A stretch of DNA of 64,000 nucleotides from assembly GCF_000403355.2 (NCBI RefSeq), contig NZ_KE159646.1, positions 62,001 to 126,000 of the forward strand, read 5' to 3'. The first letter of the stretch is position 1, and each line of letters opens with the position of its first letter. The translations under genes were made by a program, and so were the position numbers. Below the pieces are notes generated by a model, which was given only the letters and a program-made list of their open reading frames with translations, had not been told where the DNA came from and searched no databases. This stretch comes from Adlercreutzia caecimuris B7. GTDB taxonomy: Bacteria > Actinomycetota > Coriobacteriia > Coriobacteriales > Eggerthellaceae. Shown here piece after piece: positions 7,435 to 41,258 of the stretch.

Positions 7435-8583
7435 ATGGAAGAAAAAAGGAACGTTCCCAAGCTCCGTTTCCCCGGTTTCACTGACCCTTGGGAACAGCGT
7501 AAGCTGGGGGAGCTTTTGACATACGAGCAGCCGCAGCCTTACATTGTTGAAAGCACTGAATACAGCGGTAACCCCGGAACCCCCGTGCTTACAGCTGGAC
7601 AGCGCTTCATTTTGGGATATACCGATGAGGAATATGGAATAAAGATTGCCAGCGAAGATAGCCCCGTTGTTATTTTCGATGACTTCACCACCTCATCTCA
7701 TTTTGTTGAATTCCCATTTAAAGTGAAGAGTTCAGCGATGAAGCTTTTGAGTCCAAGGGACAAGGAGGATGACTTTCGGTTTATCTTCCATACGTTGGGG
7801 AAGATAAACTACACGCCGCAAGGTCACGAACGACATTGGATATCAAAGTTTTCAAAATTTAGCGTTCCTGTTCCGGGCAAAATAGAACAAGAAAAAATAG
7901 GTTCTCTCTTCCAGAAGCTCGACTCGCTCATCACCCTTCATCAGCGTAAGTTGGATCATGCCAAGGAGTTGAAAAAAGGACTGCTTCAAAAAATGTTTCC
8001 AAAAGAAGGAGCGAGTGTGCCGGAGCTTCGTTTCCCCGGTTTCACTGACCCTTGGGAACAGCGTAGGTTGGGGGAGATAGCGACCGTTACTATGGGCCAG
8101 TCGCCAAACGGCGCTTTTTATACCGACAACCCTAGCGACATAATCCTAGTTCAAGGCAATGCTGATCTTAAGGATGGCTGGGTCTGTCCAAGGGTTTGGA
8201 CAACCCAGATTACCAAAACGGCAAATGCCGGAGATTTGATTATGAGCGTGCGTGCGCCTGTGGGCGCTGTGGGTAAAACTGCATTTGACGTGGTTCTCGG
8301 CAGAGGAGTTGCCGGGATTGCGGGTGACGAGTTTCTTTACCAAGCCCTGCAAAAGAAAGCACAAGATGGCTACTGGACAGTTGTTTCGGCTGGGTCGACT
8401 TTCGACTCGATTAGTGGGGGCGATCTTAAAGATACACCTATTCCTGTTCCTTCTAGTTCTGCTGAGAGAGCGAAGATCGGAGAGCAACTTCGCAAGCTCG
8501 ACTCGCTCATCACCCTTCATCAGCGTCAGTTGGATCACATCAAAGAACTGAAAAAAGGCCTGCTTCAGCAGATGTTCGTCTAG
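7435..8583 (+). CDS. hsdS: Type I restriction-modification specificity subunit (HsdS), two TRDs, expressed copy
   Basis: Predicted 382 aa with two TRD-plus-helix halves, so it should define a bipartite recognition site. Each half opens with FPGFTDPWEQR(K/R)LGE and closes with LDSLITLHQR, then (K/Q)LDH and KELKKGLLQ(K/Q)MF. At DNA level the 5' boxes are 7488-7512 and 8052-8076, and the 3' boxes are 7918-7947 and 8497-8526. The same boxes border three silent cassettes downstream of hsdM. The ATG overlaps the end of fic by close spacing, and hsdM follows 17 bases later. This is the only HsdS here with a start codon, full length and operon position. Confidence 0.95.
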   Translation: MEEKRNVPKLRFPGFTDPWEQRKLGELLTYEQPQPYIVESTEYSGNPGTPVLTAGQRFILGYTDEEYGIKIASEDSPVVIFDDFTTSSHFVEFPFKVKSSAMKLLSPRDKEDDFRFIFHTLGKINYTPQGHERHWISKFSKFSVPVPGKIEQEKIGSLFQKLDSLITLHQRKLDHAKELKKGLLQKMFPKEGASVPELRFPGFTDPWEQRRLGEIATVTMGQSPNGAFYTDNPSDIILVQGNADLKDGWVCPRVWTTQITKTANAGDLIMSVRAPVGAVGKTAFDVVLGRGVAGIAGDEFLYQALQKKAQDGYWTVVSAGSTFDSISGGDLKDTPIPVPSSSAERAKIGEQLRKLDSLITLHQRQLDHIKELKKGLLQQMFV

Positions 8584-34425: not shown

Positions 34426-34546
34426 TGCGACAAAAGATGCGATCGGGCGACATTTCCCGCGGGGAAAGGCCCTGGAATGCGACAAATCTGTCGATCGGGC
34501 GACATTTGACGGCAATGGATGTCGCCCGATCATGCTATCTGTCGCA
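34426..34546. repeat. Cluster A of a 28-bp box (three copies)
   Basis: Boxes lie at 34426-34453 (+), 34478-34505 (+) and 34519-34546 (-). Each reads TGCGACAAAT, five variable bases, GATCGGGCGACAT, with at most two deviations in the constant part. GCGACA recurs inside each box 20 bases apart. The gaps are 24 and 13 bases. The last box is followed by TTTTCCCGGC and then GCTTGGGAA, as in cluster B. The 673-bp gap between degV and the LuxR gene has no other recognised gene. Confidence 0.85.
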
Positions 34547-34620
34547 TTTTCCCGGCAAAAGCTTGGGAAGTGGGGAAGCGCGGAAAGCGCAGAGAGTCCG
34601 TGGGGCGCATGGGGGCGCCG

Positions 34621-34742: not shown

Positions 34743-36254
34743 CTACCCCTCCACGAGGTCGATCAACTCCTGGTGGGAGTGGATGCCGAGCTTGGCGTAG
34801 ACATGTTTCACGTGGGCCTTCACGGTGTTGCGCGATACGACGAGCGCCTCCTCGATGTAGGCTCGGTCGCGGCCGCGGGCGAGCATGGCGAACACCTCGG
34901 CCTCGCGCGGCGTGAGGAAGAACTCGCTGGCGATGGCCTCGCAACGGGCGGTGAAGGCCTCCTCGGGCGCGAGGGTGGCCCCCGATGCCGCCGAGGTGCC
35001 GGCATCGGGCACATTCACCGGTTCGATGCCGTCGATGGCCCCGGTGAAGGTGAAGCGCTTCAGCCCCACGAGCACGTAGGCGGCAAACACCAAGAGCAGC
35101 ACTGCCGGAATCGCCACGCGCAGTGAGGGATTGCCCGCCGCAGCGCCGTTGGCGATCATGCCGGCCGCCGCACCGGTAAGCGACCCCAAGGCCGAAACGC
35201 CGTTGCCCCAGGCTACGGTGGTGACGGCGCCCAGGGGGTTGCGGGCGGCGATGGCCACGAGCGCCATCTGGGCCGCCATGGCGAACAGCCCGTTGCCGGC
35301 GTTCAGCAGGGCCACATCGGCTGCTTTTCCGCCGATGATGAGCAGGGGCTGGGCCGACAGCAGGAAGCCGGCCATTACCACGAGGGCCGACAGCTGCACC
35401 ACGCCATCGGCGGGGAAGCGGCGTCGCGAGAGGGCCACGTAGATCGCCACAACCGCCAGCGGGGCTGCCGAGAAGAGCGACATGCGCGGGGTGCCGGCCA
35501 CCTCGCCGAAGCGCAGGGCGAAACCGAAGGCCACCTGGAACAGGAACAGACAGCCGAACAAAGTCGAGAAGGGCGCCAGGAACGAGGCCGGCCGCGTGAC
35601 GGACATATCGCTTGGCGAGGGGCGGCCGCGCGCCGCATCGAAGAAGAAGCCGCCGCCGGTCGCCGTAAGGGCGAGCGCGGCCAGGGGGAATGCCAGGAAA
35701 AGGGCAATACCCACGGCCGGCGGCACCAGGGCGCACGCCGGGCTGGCGGCCAGCTGCAACATGTAGGCCACTGCGATGGCCATCGCCGCCTGGTGCGATG
35801 TGAGCCGTGCCAGGTACAGGGAGGTTGTCGCGGTGGCCGCCGCCCGACCTGCGGCCGCCGCGCTCGCACCGATGACGAGCGGCGCCGGCAGGGCCCAGGC
35901 GAGGCCGGCCGCAAGCAGGGTACCGCCGAGGACGATGCATGCGGCCGCCCCTCCGATGATCGCGCCGCGGCGCAGCGCGGACGGTGCGCGGTAGGCCATA
36001 AGGCCCAGGGCCAGCAGCGTGATCGCCGAGCAGGTGACGGAGATATCGCGAGCGAACATGAAGACGGCATCGAACTGCGGGAAGATGGACCCGTTCATAA
36101 GCGCGGTGGCCCCGAGCACCAGCAGCAGCGCCGCGAACCCGCGCGCCGGGCTCGCAGATGGGGAGGCGTCGGCTCCCGATGGCGCCGCGCCTGCGCGTGC
36201 CCCGCGTTCGGACGCCGCCCCGCGGGGCACGTTCTCCAGCTCTCGTTTCTCCAT
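34743..36254 (-). CDS. LuxR-type regulator with polytopic membrane N-terminus
   Basis: Predicted 503 aa. After a polar leader (about 40 residues) come about 12 hydrophobic segments (about 43-425), then a linker and a C-terminal LuxR HTH: LTPREAEVFAMLARGRDRAYIEEALVVSRNTVKAHVKHVYAKLG. Regulators of this build are numerous in Eggerthella lenta, where they control adjacent substrate-induced enzymes. Here the neighbour is a flavin reductase/cytochrome pair on the same strand. The ATG at 36254 is chosen because upstream sequence is low-complexity; a TACAAT -10-like hexamer (36287-36282) precedes it. Confidence 0.92.
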   Translation of the reverse strand: MEKRELENVPRGAASERGARAGAAPSGADASPSASPARGFAALLLVLGATALMNGSIFPQFDAVFMFARDISVTCSAITLLALGLMAYRAPSALRRGAIIGGAAACIVLGGTLLAAGLAWALPAPLVIGASAAAAGRAAATATTSLYLARLTSHQAAMAIAVAYMLQLAASPACALVPPAVGIALFLAFPLAALALTATGGGFFFDAARGRPSPSDMSVTRPASFLAPFSTLFGCLFLFQVAFGFALRFGEVAGTPRMSLFSAAPLAVVAIYVALSRRRFPADGVVQLSALVVMAGFLLSAQPLLIIGGKAADVALLNAGNGLFAMAAQMALVAIAARNPLGAVTTVAWGNGVSALGSLTGAAAGMIANGAAAGNPSLRVAIPAVLLLVFAAYVLVGLKRFTFTGAIDGIEPVNVPDAGTSAASGATLAPEEAFTARCEAIASEFFLTPREAEVFAMLARGRDRAYIEEALVVSRNTVKAHVKHVYAKLGIHSHQELIDLVEG

Positions 36255-36608: not shown

Positions 36609-38333
36609 TTAGGCCTGGCCCGTGGCGGCCAGCATGCCGGCGCGTCGCCCGAATGTCATGGTGCGCCCGCAGGCGAGGCCCGTCATCAGGTTCGGATAGC
36701 TCACGCTGAAGAAGCCGCCCGAGTCGTTGCCCGTCAGGTACAGGCCCAAAATGGGATCGCCGTTCTCATCGCAGGGGTGCATGTTCGTGTCGATGGTCAC
36801 GCCGTCCAAGGTGGCCAGGAACCACGCGCCCGTGCGCACGCCATAGAAGGGCGGCGTGTCGATGGCCATGAGGCGGTGCTTCTCCTTGTTGTAGTCCTCG
36901 TCGCGCCCGGCCGCGGCCATCTCGTTGTAGCGCTTCCACGAGGCCACGGTGGTCTCCACGGGCAGGTTTAGCTTCTCGGCCAGCTCCTCCATGGTGTCGG
37001 CCTGCTGCACGTAGCCGTCCTCGATGAGCTTCTCGATCATGCCGTCCACCACGACCATGGGGATGTTGTTCTTCGCCCCGTTGTCGAAGGGGAACAGCCG
37101 GCAGCAGCCCACCTCGTCCATGGCCTCGGCCTGGGCGGCGTGGTTCGCATCCCAGATGTCCACGTAGGTCTGGTGCGGCTGCATGATGGTGGAGTGCAGC
37201 ATGTAGTCGTAGGGGCCGCTCTCGTTGCAGAAGCGCTCGCCCTTCAGGTTCAGCTTCAGGAAGGGCTGCTCGCCGAACCAGAACCAGCGGCCGAGCACGC
37301 CGTCGCCGGCGTACTGGTCGGGCTTCACGCAGGCGCGGTTGAAGGTGCAGGCCGCGCCGAGCGGGTCCATGGTGGCGCCGAGCCACAGCGCCGCCTTGAT
37401 GCCGGAGCCGGTCGGGTTGCCGCCGGAGCCGGGGGCCGCGATGCGGATCTTCTGGTTCCAGGACTGGCGGTCCTCCATCATCTCCAGGTTGTTGCCGTAG
37501 CCGCCCGTGGACAGGATGACGCCCTTGCTGGCGTTGATGCGCAGGTAGCGGCGCTCGCCTTCCACCTCGCGGGCGATGACGCCGGTCACGCGCCCGCCCT
37601 CGTCGGTCTCGCACTTGACGAACTCGGTGTACCAGCGCACCTCGGCGCCCTGCTCGGCGGCGTAGGCCAGGATGGACTCCGCGAAGCCCCACTCCTCGTC
37701 CTCGGCCACGGCGTCGGTCTTCTGGGGGCTGTGGCCGGTGGCGAAGGCCTTGTCGCGGCCCGGGTCGTCGATGTTGCCCACACCGCCCTCGAACTCCATG
37801 ACCATCTTGCCGTCGCGCTCTACGATGTCGGTGAGCCAGTCCACCATGGCGCCCGACTCGTTGGCCCACAGCTTCACCAGATCGTAGTCCACGAATCCGT
37901 TGGCGTAGCGGACGATCTCCTCCATGGCCTCCATCTTGTCGATGCGGAACTGGGGGAACTCGTCGAAGGACGCCTGCTGCAGGCGAGAGTCGATGGCACC
38001 GATGTCCTCGCGGACGTTATGCGGGCTGCCCTGGCGGTCGATGCCGAGCACCCGCGCTCCGTTCTCGGCAGCCGAGATCATGGCCGGGATGCCGCCGGTG
38101 CCGACGCCCACGACGAGCACCTCGGTGTCGATCGTCTCGGCGATGGCCGACTCCTCGATGACGGGCGGCGCGCCGAGCCAGGAGGGGCCGCCGAAGTCGC
38201 CCGCGCTCGGGTTCGCGGGCTCTTCGGCCGCGTAGCCGTGGCCGCATCCAGATAGCGCGGCAGCGGAAAGACCGCCCAGGGCGGCAAGGCCCGCGCCCTT
38301 GAAGAAGCTGCGGCGTGAGACGTTACTCTGCAT
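36609..38333 (-). CDS. Tat-exported FAD-dependent reductase (fumarate/urocanate reductase superfamily)
   Basis: Predicted 574 aa. A twin-arginine signal (SRRSFFKG, R7-R8) ends in LSGC with Cys30, so it is probably a Tat-exported lipoprotein. FAD binding is shown by VLVVGVGTGGIPAMISAAENG and the C-terminal GLYLTGNDSGGFFSVSYPNLMTG. The middle contains ERFCNESGPYDY, usual in the fumarate reductase flavoprotein family. No haem or FMN domain is present, so electrons should come from the cytochrome encoded just upstream, with which it overlaps by 11 bases. The acceptor substrate cannot be read from sequence. Confidence 0.92.
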   Translation of the reverse strand: MQSNVSRRSFFKGAGLAALGGLSAAALSGCGHGYAAEEPANPSAGDFGGPSWLGAPPVIEESAIAETIDTEVLVVGVGTGGIPAMISAAENGARVLGIDRQGSPHNVREDIGAIDSRLQQASFDEFPQFRIDKMEAMEEIVRYANGFVDYDLVKLWANESGAMVDWLTDIVERDGKMVMEFEGGVGNIDDPGRDKAFATGHSPQKTDAVAEDEEWGFAESILAYAAEQGAEVRWYTEFVKCETDEGGRVTGVIAREVEGERRYLRINASKGVILSTGGYGNNLEMMEDRQSWNQKIRIAAPGSGGNPTGSGIKAALWLGATMDPLGAACTFNRACVKPDQYAGDGVLGRWFWFGEQPFLKLNLKGERFCNESGPYDYMLHSTIMQPHQTYVDIWDANHAAQAEAMDEVGCCRLFPFDNGAKNNIPMVVVDGMIEKLIEDGYVQQADTMEELAEKLNLPVETTVASWKRYNEMAAAGRDEDYNKEKHRLMAIDTPPFYGVRTGAWFLATLDGVTIDTNMHPCDENGDPILGLYLTGNDSGGFFSVSYPNLMTGLACGRTMTFGRRAGMLAATGQA

Positions 38334-39009
38334 GGGGGGCCTCCCATCCTTCGGGCAGGGTCAGATCGTGGCACTCGTTGCACACGAGCACCTGGTTCTC
38401 GTGGATCTTGTGGCAGTCGCTGCACTCCAGCGCCATGTCCTGGTGGCTCGCGTGGGGGTTGTACTTCTCGTCGTTGCCGGCAAAGCCCCACAGATTCGCG
38501 GTGATCTCGTCGAAGGAGGTGCCCGCGGCGTGGTGGCATTCGGGACGGGCGCAGAACTTCTCGCTCGCGAACTGTTTGCCGGTGGCGAGCATGGTGCCGT
38601 CCTCGGTCATGGGGTAGGTGTCCGACACCCAGGCGCACACCTCGGCCACCTGGGTGGTCAGCTCGGCGGTGTGGCAGTCCAGGCACGCCTCGCCGGCCTT
38701 CGCGTGGGCCGTCACGCCGAGCTGCGGATTGCCGTCGTCGTAGGTCTCCACGTAGTAGTCCATGGGGCTGTGGCAGATGGCGTTGCAGAAGCTCGGCTGC
38801 TCGTGCCAGACCCAGAAGCCCGCGCCGGCCACCACGATGACGGCCGCCACCACGCCGGCGACGATCCATCCGCGCCGCCGCGGCTTCTTGGGGGCGGCGC
38901 CGAGTGCGCCGTTGGGCGATGCGGCGCCGGATGCAGGGGAGCCGGGCGCGCCGGGCGCCCCCTCCTGCGGTCCGGCCGCGGTTGCGGCCTTTTCCTCGTC
39001 GATGCTCAT
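38323..39009 (-). CDS. NapC/NirT-like membrane-anchored multihaem cytochrome c
   Basis: Predicted 228 aa. A Pro/Ala-rich cytoplasmic leader precedes one membrane helix (about residues 47-68). Haem motifs are C75-x3-C79-H, C109-x2-C112-H, C153-x4-C158-H, C196-x2-C199-H and C210-x2-C213-H. It should pass electrons from menaquinol to the flavoprotein outside the membrane. Two of the five motifs have non-standard spacing. GGAAGGGAGG lies before the ATG, and the next gene overlaps it, so the pair is one transcript. Confidence 0.92.
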   Translation of the reverse strand: MSIDEEKAATAAGPQEGAPGAPGSPASGAASPNGALGAAPKKPRRRGWIVAGVVAAVIVVAGAGFWVWHEQPSFCNAICHSPMDYYVETYDDGNPQLGVTAHAKAGEACLDCHTAELTTQVAEVCAWVSDTYPMTEDGTMLATGKQFASEKFCARPECHHAAGTSFDEITANLWGFAGNDEKYNPHASHQDMALECSDCHKIHENQVLVCNECHDLTLPEGWEAPHAE

Positions 39010-39061
39010 GATCGTTTCCTCCCTTCCTCGTCTTATGCAGAAACAATGGGGCCAGTGTGCG

Positions 39062-39099
39062 CCCCAAAGGGGTGGAAAGCTATTACCCCAGCGGGGTAA
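39062..39099. promoter_or_regulatory. Two palindromes upstream of the cytochrome-flavoprotein operon
   Basis: CCCC-AAA-GGGG (39062-39072, within GCCCCAAAGGGG) and TTACCCC-AGC-GGGGTAA (39083-39099) are centred 24 bases apart, about 55-85 bases before the cytochrome start. Both share CCCC-N3-GGGG. They are the best candidates for binding sites of the adjacent LuxR-type regulator. Confidence 0.55.
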
Positions 39100-39274
39100 A
39101 CTTTGCGTTTAGCCTGATGAGTTCAGGGTAAAAGGCAGCTCGGGAGGGGAGGGGAAGGAGGGACGGGCCGGCCGCGGGCGCCCGATACCCGACCTGCCCC
39201 ATCATCGATGTTGGTTGCGTCGAGGCGCATCTTTCCAGTTGCCGGGGGCCAGTTGGCGGGTAAGGTGTCGCGTT

Positions 39275-40582
39275 ATGAATTTGTACCTCTCCCATAGCAC
39301 CGCGCTTCGCTTTTGGCGCGCCTGGTCGGCCGCGGCTGCCGTGCCCTTGCATGCCTTCCACGACCTGGGCGCCGCCGAAGCTGCGCTGTTCCCCGATCGC
39401 TTCTTCGCCGCATCGGAGGTGCTTTTCCGAGCCGTCCGCACCGATCGAGAGATTCGGGAGGCGTTGCGGCGCGCGGCAGCCCCGGGGGATCCCTCTGCGG
39501 CGTCCGCCGCCGAGAAGGCCGCTGATCCGGCGGCCTCCGTCGCGCCGGGCGCCGCTGCCCCGCGGGTGCCGCCGGCCTCCGCCGTGCTAGGGGCTGCAAC
39601 GTCGTGCGCGGACTCGCTGGAGATAGCGGCCGCCACTGCGCCGGGCGTGGTTGCGCCGGGGGCGCCGGCTGCCGATGCGGCGTCAGCGAGCGACGCGGTG
39701 CCGGCGACTGGCGCCGTGGCGGTGGCGCTTCGCACGGCATGCTGTTCCGATAACGGCTCGGTGCATGTTGTGACGACCAGCTGCGGAGGTTTGCGCGACT
39801 CGACCGCCGCGACCCGCCATCGGATCGGGGGCGCCCTGCCGCGGGGATCATTTCTCAAAGTGGCCCCGGGCGTGTTCGTGTGCTCTCCCGAGCTCGTCTT
39901 CGTCCAGATGGCCGCAAGCGTTCCCCGTGGCGCCCTTCTCGCGCTCGGCTACGAGTTGTGTGGCTGCTATCCGGTCGGGGGCGATCGGGCGGGCGCCCCC
40001 GTGCGTCGGCCCCTGACCGCCCCGCGTCGCCTGTCGGCATTCGCCGCCCGCGCGACGGGGCTCACGGGCGTGACGGCGGCCCGCGCGGCCGCAAAGCAGG
40101 TGCTTGCCAAATCGGGCTCGATCATGGAGACAGAGGTGTCCATCGTGGCCTTCTCCTCCGTGGCCCAGGGCGGGTTGGGGCTTGTGCCGCCGAAGCTGAA
40201 CGAGCCGGTGATGCTGTCCGCCCGGGCGAAAGAGGCGACGGGCCTGAGCCGCGTTGTGTGCGATTGGCTGTGGCCCGAGGCGCGGGTGGCTGTCGAATAC
40301 GACGGACGCGACTCCCACGCCAGCCCGCAGCAGCAGGCCCGCGATGCCCGCAAGCGCGATGCGTTGCGCATCGACGGTTTCGACCTGACCGTCATCACGA
40401 GCTCTCAGTTTCACCACGTGACCCAGTGCACGGCGCTGCTGCTGGGCGTGGGCCGTCGCGTCGGGCCGAGGAAGCGCAAGCTGAGCGCCGAGCACGCGCC
40501 CCGGCATTTGACGCTGCGCAAGCAGGTGCGCGCGCATCATCGCGAGCATTTCCCCTTTCGCTTCAAGAAGAGCCGCCCGTAG
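39275..40582 (+). CDS. Hypothetical protein with DUF559/Vsr-like C-terminus
   Basis: Predicted 435 aa from the ATG at 39275 (MNLYLSHSTALRFWR). Residues about 70-170 are Ala-rich and low in complexity. The C-terminal part contains ARVAVEYDGRDSHASPQQQ and DGFDLTVITSSQ (residues about 337-375), resembling the PD-(D/E)XK core of DUF559 proteins. An AbiEi-like role is possible but not shown. The 28-bp box cluster B starts 125 bases after the stop. Confidence 0.6.
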   Translation: MNLYLSHSTALRFWRAWSAAAAVPLHAFHDLGAAEAALFPDRFFAASEVLFRAVRTDREIREALRRAAAPGDPSAASAAEKAADPAASVAPGAAAPRVPPASAVLGAATSCADSLEIAAATAPGVVAPGAPAADAASASDAVPATGAVAVALRTACCSDNGSVHVVTTSCGGLRDSTAATRHRIGGALPRGSFLKVAPGVFVCSPELVFVQMAASVPRGALLALGYELCGCYPVGGDRAGAPVRRPLTAPRRLSAFAARATGLTGVTAARAAAKQVLAKSGSIMETEVSIVAFSSVAQGGLGLVPPKLNEPVMLSARAKEATGLSRVVCDWLWPEARVAVEYDGRDSHASPQQQARDARKRDALRIDGFDLTVITSSQFHHVTQCTALLLGVGRRVGPRKRKLSAEHAPRHLTLRKQVRAHHREHFPFRFKKSRP

Positions 40583-40706
40583 AGCCCGCTGAGTTTCCGG
40601 GGGCTCTCTCCAAGAGCGTTCGAGGGCCGCCAGAAGTCGTCATGGGCCGCCAAGGGGTCGCTAGGAGCCTCCCGGCGCCCCGATATTCTAGCCGAACTCG
40701 CGAAAA

Positions 40707-40826
40707 TGCGACAAATCGGCTGATTGGGCGACATCGCGGAGCACTATATGTCGCTCGATCGACACATTTGTCGCAGACCGGGCCTTCTTTCGAGAAAAAT
40801 GTCGCCCGATCGTGATATTTGTCGCA
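40707..40826. repeat. Cluster B of the 28-bp box (three copies)
   Basis: Boxes lie at 40707-40734 (+), 40748-40775 (-) and 40799-40826 (-), with 13- and 23-base gaps. They fit the same consensus as cluster A. The order of boxes is that of cluster A reversed and complemented, yet the tail TTTTCCCG...GCTTGGGAA follows on the plus strand in both. Confidence 0.85.
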
Positions 40827-41258
40827 TTTTCCCGACTTTGCTTGGGAAAAGCGCGTCCGTGCGCGGAGGCCCCGCTTCTGTCGTGCGCGCCGGTCTGCCC
40901 TCGCTGGCCCGCTTCTTTCGTGCGTGCTAGCCCGCCCTTGCCGATCGCGTTCCTTTCTCGCCCATGGCTCTCCCCAGCCTCTTCGATCGCGTCATCCGCT
41001 GCTCCGCTTGCTTTCTCCTCTCCCTCTTTCGTGCTGCTTGCACCCACCCCTTGTCACCTGCGCTCTTCTGCCTCCCGGCGACCTTCCGTTGCTTCTCCTG
41101 CCACCCCACACTCCCGGCCCTTCCTCGCTGTTTGCGTCCTCCTGCCGCTTCGTTGATGTTTCTTGTCGGCAAATCGCGCGTTCGCACTGCGGGGCGTGCG
41201 GGGCGTCGCCTATAATGCAACACTTGATCTTTGACTATCTATAAGGAGGTGTGAGTTC
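40827..41258. other. Non-coding stretch before the carboxyltransferase gene
   Basis: This pyrimidine-rich region shows no supportable gene. TATAAT at 41211-41216 is a probable -10 for the next gene, 43 bases before its start; no good -35 is visible. AAGGAGGTGTGA precedes the ATG. Confidence 0.5.

Follow-up and report, generated by a model that had tools for sequence, protein, structure and literature searches.

What controls the electron-transfer operon in a 64,000-nucleotide stretch of DNA from Adlercreutzia caecimuris B7 (hereafter the window), and do the palindromes in front of it belong to that control? The genome is close to that of Adlercreutzia muris, and the window's reductase is 99% identical to the one at locus L088 (A. 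muris DSM 29508). On the minus strand a gene for a multihaem cytochrome c is followed by one for a FAD-dependent reductase (top PDB matches 1d4c and 6t85) and, in third place, by a gene for a LuxR-type regulator, so that the regulator gene directly adjoins a flavin enzyme encoded immediately upstream on the same strand (Table 1). The regulator, for which we chose the start codon ourselves, matches the GerE helix-turn-helix (HTH) domain PF00196 with 50.1 bits against a cut-off of 23.5. A rough hydropathy scan places 11 hydrophobic segments in its N-terminal part, within the range of the 10-12-transmembrane (TM) LuxR family. According to PMC9734109, this family controls the metabolism of drugs, dietary compounds and host compounds in gut Coriobacteriia and has tens of paralogues per genome.

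Two further features surround the operon. The intergenic region before the cytochrome gene is shared with a divergent gene on the plus strand (39215-40582), whose product has a weak endonuclease-like match (PF18741, REase_MTES_1575; 20 bits, under the cut-off of 38.2). Paired inverted REP-like elements with units ATGTCGCNCGATCG...TTTGTCGCA lie at 34426-34548 and 40695-40838, and TTTGTCGCA has five copies in the window against 0.51 expected.

Table 1. Features of the operon and its promoter region (positions in the window).
Feature	Position	Strand	Basis or remark
LuxR-type regulator, 503 aa, N-terminal membrane domain and C-terminal GerE HTH	34743-36254	-	
FAD-dependent reductase, flavocytochrome c / urocanate reductase type	36609-38333	-	PF00890, 87 bits
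Multihaem cytochrome c, N-terminal hydrophobic stretch	38323-39009	-	Cytochrom_c3_2, PF14537, 32.4 bits, cut-off 25
-10-like hexamer CACACT	39054-39059	-	Begins 32 bp downstream of palindrome centre
Near palindrome CCCC-AAA-GGGG	39062-39072	none	Not conserved
Conserved TAGC adjoining the far palindrome, presumed -35 region	39079-39082	-	23-row alignment
Far palindrome, conserved candidate operator TTACCCC-GCT-GGGGTAA	39083-39099 (core 39086-39096)	-	Orthologue conservation
Shared upstream box ACTCATCAGGCTAAAC	39107-39122	-	Centre 39115; palindrome centre 39091; 24 bp apart

The first-pass annotation had proposed that twin CCCC-N3-GGGG palindromes form the operator of this operon and suit two dimers of a LuxR-type regulator. 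Both palindromes are present upstream of the cytochrome gene, CCCCAAAGGGG as the near and CCCCAGCGGGG as the far one, with centres 24 bases apart. The core pattern itself is ordinary: the window holds five copies against 3.06 expected, at least five occur in 22 of 100 shuffles, and the whole genome has 89 copies compared with 73 for the reversed pattern. The longer form TTACCCC-N3-GGGGTAA, with up to three mismatches, occurs at 38 places in the 2.96-Mb genome (80 for the reversed control); the window's place is the only one with at most one mismatch, one other has two, and the remaining 36 have three. Since the long form is rare and the core common, the far site is unusual by itself and the near site is not.

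We then compared the promoters of orthologous operons. A scan of genome contigs for the reductase turned up 108 relatives, of which the best 80 (L079-L158) were retained; 27 of these loci (L079-L105) carry the operon in Eggerthellaceae-type genomes. Five (L092, L094, L095, L096 and L102) offered no sequence before the cytochrome gene and were dropped, leaving 22 orthologous loci. The strict CCCC-N3-GGGG core was found upstream of the cytochrome gene in 16 of them, and the best match to TTTACCCC-N3-GGGGTAAT covered 12-16 of 16 positions in every locus, with the second-best place reaching 9-11. At least 14 positions were matched in 13/22 loci and in 0/4400 mononucleotide-shuffled regions. The remaining nine loci, at 12-13 positions, have a score also reached by 3% of shuffled regions and weigh mainly by the fixed location of the palindrome, which is the same in all 22 promoters. 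A dyad-symmetric site before the orthologues, as expected for a LuxR/NarL-type operator, is thus present throughout. Judged by this comparison, the far palindrome, shared across several genera, is very probably a real, conserved operator of the electron-transfer operon.

The surroundings of the far palindrome are conserved as well. We aligned the 22 loci and the window in 23 rows anchored on the best palindrome match, so conservation within the palindrome is partly built in, and conservation outside it is not. Adjoining the palindrome, the TAGC columns hold T in 23, A in 16, G in 22 and C in 17 rows (the T belongs to the anchor pattern). The columns of the -10-like hexamer hold A in 19/23 and T in 17/23 rows, at a fixed distance from the palindrome; a consensus scan of 38950-39290 found no sigma-70 type promoter. 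The upstream box has a core A-N-C-W-G, with A, C and G in 23, 23 and 22 of the 23 rows. If CACACT is taken as the -10, transcription would start near 39047, and the palindrome centre and the box would fall at about -44 and -68, respectively. A LuxR/NarL-type operator is expected near -42. On the above condition the two sites would sit where a class II activator binds and where a second contact is made further upstream.

As for the protein that reads the site, we think it likely that the far palindrome is the DNA site of the 12-TM LuxR protein encoded third in the same operon, which would switch the operon on. A LuxR match lies downstream of the reductase in 23 of the 27 loci, two of these matches being incomplete (L083 and L088). 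In three of the four loci that have none, the contig ends within the reductase or at most 0.8 kb past it. The fourth (L098, Eggerthella sinensis) keeps the palindrome, and a LuxR homologue is absent from its 11.7-kb locus; a regulator may act there in trans. The LuxR gene is broken at L088 (7062-7831) and in genome G003 (contig C16, 23591-24360), where the two ends match in different frames and the middle is missing. At L088 the operator is nevertheless intact despite the broken regulator gene, and cytochrome and reductase match well. At L083 (6631-7356) the LuxR match comprises only residues 271-502 and begins directly after the reductase match, which ends at residue 544; this reflects either a deletion or an assembly error in a metagenome-assembled genome.

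The palindromes retained in E. sinensis and L088 speak for a different reader of the site, either a repressor or some global factor, in place of the adjacent LuxR protein. We consider this rather unlikely, because elsewhere site and LuxR gene co-occur, and a global factor would need more sites than the single one that the genome holds with at most one mismatch. Going by record title, most of the further reductase relatives (L106-L158, 53 loci within the best 80 of 108) come from Clostridia, whose promoters and base composition differ in any case. Four had too little sequence before the reductase to be scored, and 48 of the remaining 49 score at most 11. The exception, L120 with a score of 14, is the only one of these 53 loci with a LuxR homologue.

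The near palindrome fared differently. All eight of its positions are found in a single orthologous locus (L088, A. muris) and one to six in the other 21. Because it is intact in 1/22 loci and sits between the presumed -35 and -10, it is probably a coincidence. Binding of two LuxR dimers to both palindromes could draw on the 24-bp distance between the cores, which the window shares with A. muris, but this arrangement is improbable: the near site is broken nearly everywhere and falls inside the presumed promoter, in several relatives the -10 is preceded by a GGG(G)CGCA-like stretch that lacks the left half, and CCCC-N3-GGGG cores are common by chance. Of the twin operator, the far half therefore stands and the near half probably does not; likewise, the GerE HTH gene in the operon bears out a LuxR-type regulator, whereas the near palindrome as its second dimer site is not supported. 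In the alignment it is the upstream box, not the near palindrome, that appears as the conserved 24-bp partner of the far site. The idea that the same palindrome would recur before paralogous operons also failed, no second place with at most one mismatch being present in the genome. This absence does not refute an operator, because a private operator is not expected there; orthologue conservation is the better test, and the far palindrome passes it. Action of the palindrome in RNA, as a hairpin or terminator, is highly improbable: its plus-strand copy scores terminator-like, but no called gene runs into it on that strand, on the minus strand it precedes the conserved -10-like hexamer, and 38900-39300 has no Rfam match at gathering scores.

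Under the favoured reading, in which the operon's own LuxR protein binds the far palindrome, the membrane part of the protein would signal the presence of the reductase's substrate to the HTH domain, and a dimer of HTH domains would bind the palindrome. From about -44, a class II position overlapping a -35 region without a good consensus, the dimer would recruit RNA polymerase. The box 24 bp upstream would provide a second conserved contact, for which a further LuxR dimer or a shared partner protein would be the binder. The computed basis comprises conservation, fixed geometry, the lack of a second genomic copy, co-occurrence with LuxR and recurrence of the box; from these we infer binding, activation, start site, signal and the binder of the box.

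The recurrence of the box was seen before paralogous TM-LuxR genes of the genus. The neighbourhoods of LuxR HTH hits in three Adlercreutzia genomes (188 hits, one sub-cut-off hit in G000, the window's genome, being omitted) contained 163 called proteins with the HTH, 147 of them with at least six hydrophobic segments. A first motif run returned only ribosome-binding sites, which were masked for the next; an expectation-maximization (EM) search on 143 promoters adjoining TM-LuxR genes then yielded the box YYTGANCWGGSRWWWC, present with at least 8 bits in 89 of them. The window's box scores 12.4 bits against this motif from promoters of other TM-LuxR genes. With training on two genomes and testing on the third (the starting word having been derived from all three), boxes of at least 13 bits occurred at 1.145 per kb in TM-LuxR promoters (14 hits), compared with 0.239 per kb in the remaining intergenic sequence (21 hits) and 0.032 per kb in coding sequence (12 hits). 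From two further genomes we took the first 20 LuxR hits each in listing order, with frames of 440-630 aa; two of the 40 hits had no called LuxR gene and two had less than 80 bp upstream. In the resulting 36 promoters, some of which will be orthologues of training ones, the box (10 bits) was found in 18, as against 1/36 coding stretches and 0/36 reversed promoters. In a sixth genome of the genus (G005), five of nine exact matches to the pattern have a TM-LuxR or reductase homologue no more than 1.5 kb away.

Several other promoters deserve mention in their own right. Those at L166 (box centre near 7623), L224 and L313 adjoin another TM-LuxR gene and carry a long conserved palindrome; at L166 it reads CCTGTCACGC-AAA-CGCGTGACAGG, with more GCGTGA copies downstream. 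At L169, L222 and L253 a divergent reductase/LuxR promoter is strongly conserved and contains ATCTMCCCCAWWTCCGCGAGGG and ACGATTCCTCGC.

Outside the genus the box is another matter. Matches to its pattern outnumber the reversed control in 130 of 138 Eggerthellaceae genomes (hand count), an excess that is probably due in part to codon bias and that we do not take as evidence for the box there. From five genomes, G005 of the same genus and four from other genera, we inspected 60 of the 114 matches, together with all 25 in G052, G065 and G066 (two other genera). A TM-LuxR or reductase homologue lay within 1.5 kb in 3/76 loci of other genera; as a control, 2/18 core-pattern loci were positive, both being the window's own place. 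A cruder version, counting a LuxR HTH within 1.5 kb, gave 4/60 loci and is weak because the HTH itself is encoded some 1.5 kb into its gene. There was no clustering of palindromes at +24 among the 60 loci (0.50 of 10, with 0.81 expected), and none was visible among the 25. Set beside the test promoters and G005, these counts leave the box well supported in the genus and not beyond it. The exception is the window-type operon, before which the A-N-C-W-G core is present in all genera examined.

Downstream of many boxes stands a palindrome that differs from promoter to promoter. In a discovery set of 57 promoters, one per orthologous group, 18 had a palindrome (at least 8 of 12 pairs), and six of the 18 were centred 23.5-25.5 bp from the box; 300 dinucleotide shuffles gave a mean of 0.78 and a highest value of 5.0. 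For target-facing boxes only, the count was 4/12, with a shuffle mean of 0.57 and a highest value of 4.5, above the real one. The spacing was not replicated in further genomes, where none of four palindromes was centred at 23.5-25.5 and one lay at +26. The clear palindromes at L176 and L238 were rejected as private sites, being terminator-like in appearance. Among 22 pairs of orthologous promoters (the window's group excluded), positions +14 to +34 exceeded +35 to +55 in conservation (19 pairs, p=0.023) but did not exceed the flank on the upstream side (p=0.33, 21 pairs). In the paralogue promoters no general -10 stood out clearly at a set spacing from the box.

We also examined covariation between protein and DNA in 76 promoters, using 2819 pairs with less than 40% N-terminal identity and six residues presumed to contact DNA from the recognition helix, chosen after NarL-type structures. 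Pairs alike in these residues tended to be alike in the 19-bp site at +24 from the box as well (r=0.086; 1/2000 permutations as high), with no such link at the box itself (1503/2000). Some of the 76 promoters belong to one and the same orthologous group, and the permutations therefore treat some related rows as independent. In 11-bp windows covariation was strongest at +18 (10/2000) and +30 (1/2000); it was lower at +24 (33/2000) and +36 (90/2000) and was not seen at the box, -20, +12, +42 and +50. Taken singly, residues 29 (0 of 1000) and 37 (3 of 1000) account for most of it and residues 33 and 38 for none; two sets of other HTH residues gave z of 1.9 and 2.0. The effect is small, and it hints weakly that every paralogue recognises a site of its own some 24 bp away from the box. 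The box shows no such covariation, which speaks for a shared partner or for a contact that is invariant across the family. A tentative reading is that the dozens of paralogous TM-LuxR proteins of the genus would use a common box YYTGANCWGGSRWWWC and, some 24 bp further downstream, a private site that is often a palindrome. Within this two-part scheme, it is conceivable, though somewhat doubtful, that the box serves roughly half of the promoters and that each private site is read by the protein's own recognition helix. If true, this would amount to a modular operator code by which the family multiplies without cross-talk.

How does the locus compare with known systems? DadR, HcdR and CadR of Eggerthella lenta are proven activators of their enzymes (PMC9734109), and the window's regulator resembles them in its C-terminal GerE HTH, multi-TM N-terminus, flavin-enzyme neighbour and many paralogues per genome. 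The available text of that paper (Dong et al., 2022) gave no operator sequence for the three, and we recognised no report of an operator for the 10-12-TM LuxR family in the open-access literature, subscription papers lying mostly outside the search. A conserved site with its geometry offers a direct handle for finding target genes, for building reporters and for screening substrates of orphan reductases, and makes it testable how many similar LuxR regulators avoid cross-talk. The operon is also like the cgr operon of E. lenta (Cgr1 cytochrome, Cgr2 flavoprotein and a TM LuxR) in joining a cytochrome, a flavin reductase and a TM LuxR; unlike in that operon, its cytochrome, although Cgr1-like, is far under the equivalog cut-off for Cgr1 (NF051471; 148.9 of 340 bits). 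NarL operators are pairs of TACYYMT heptamers with 7-2-7 spacing, and the lux box lies near -42.5. The spacing of the window's palindrome is one base shorter than 7-2-7, and a second box stands at a fixed 24 bp upstream, but, as in operators of the NarL/FixJ-LuxR class, TACCCC half-sites form an inverted repeat immediately before the -35 region.
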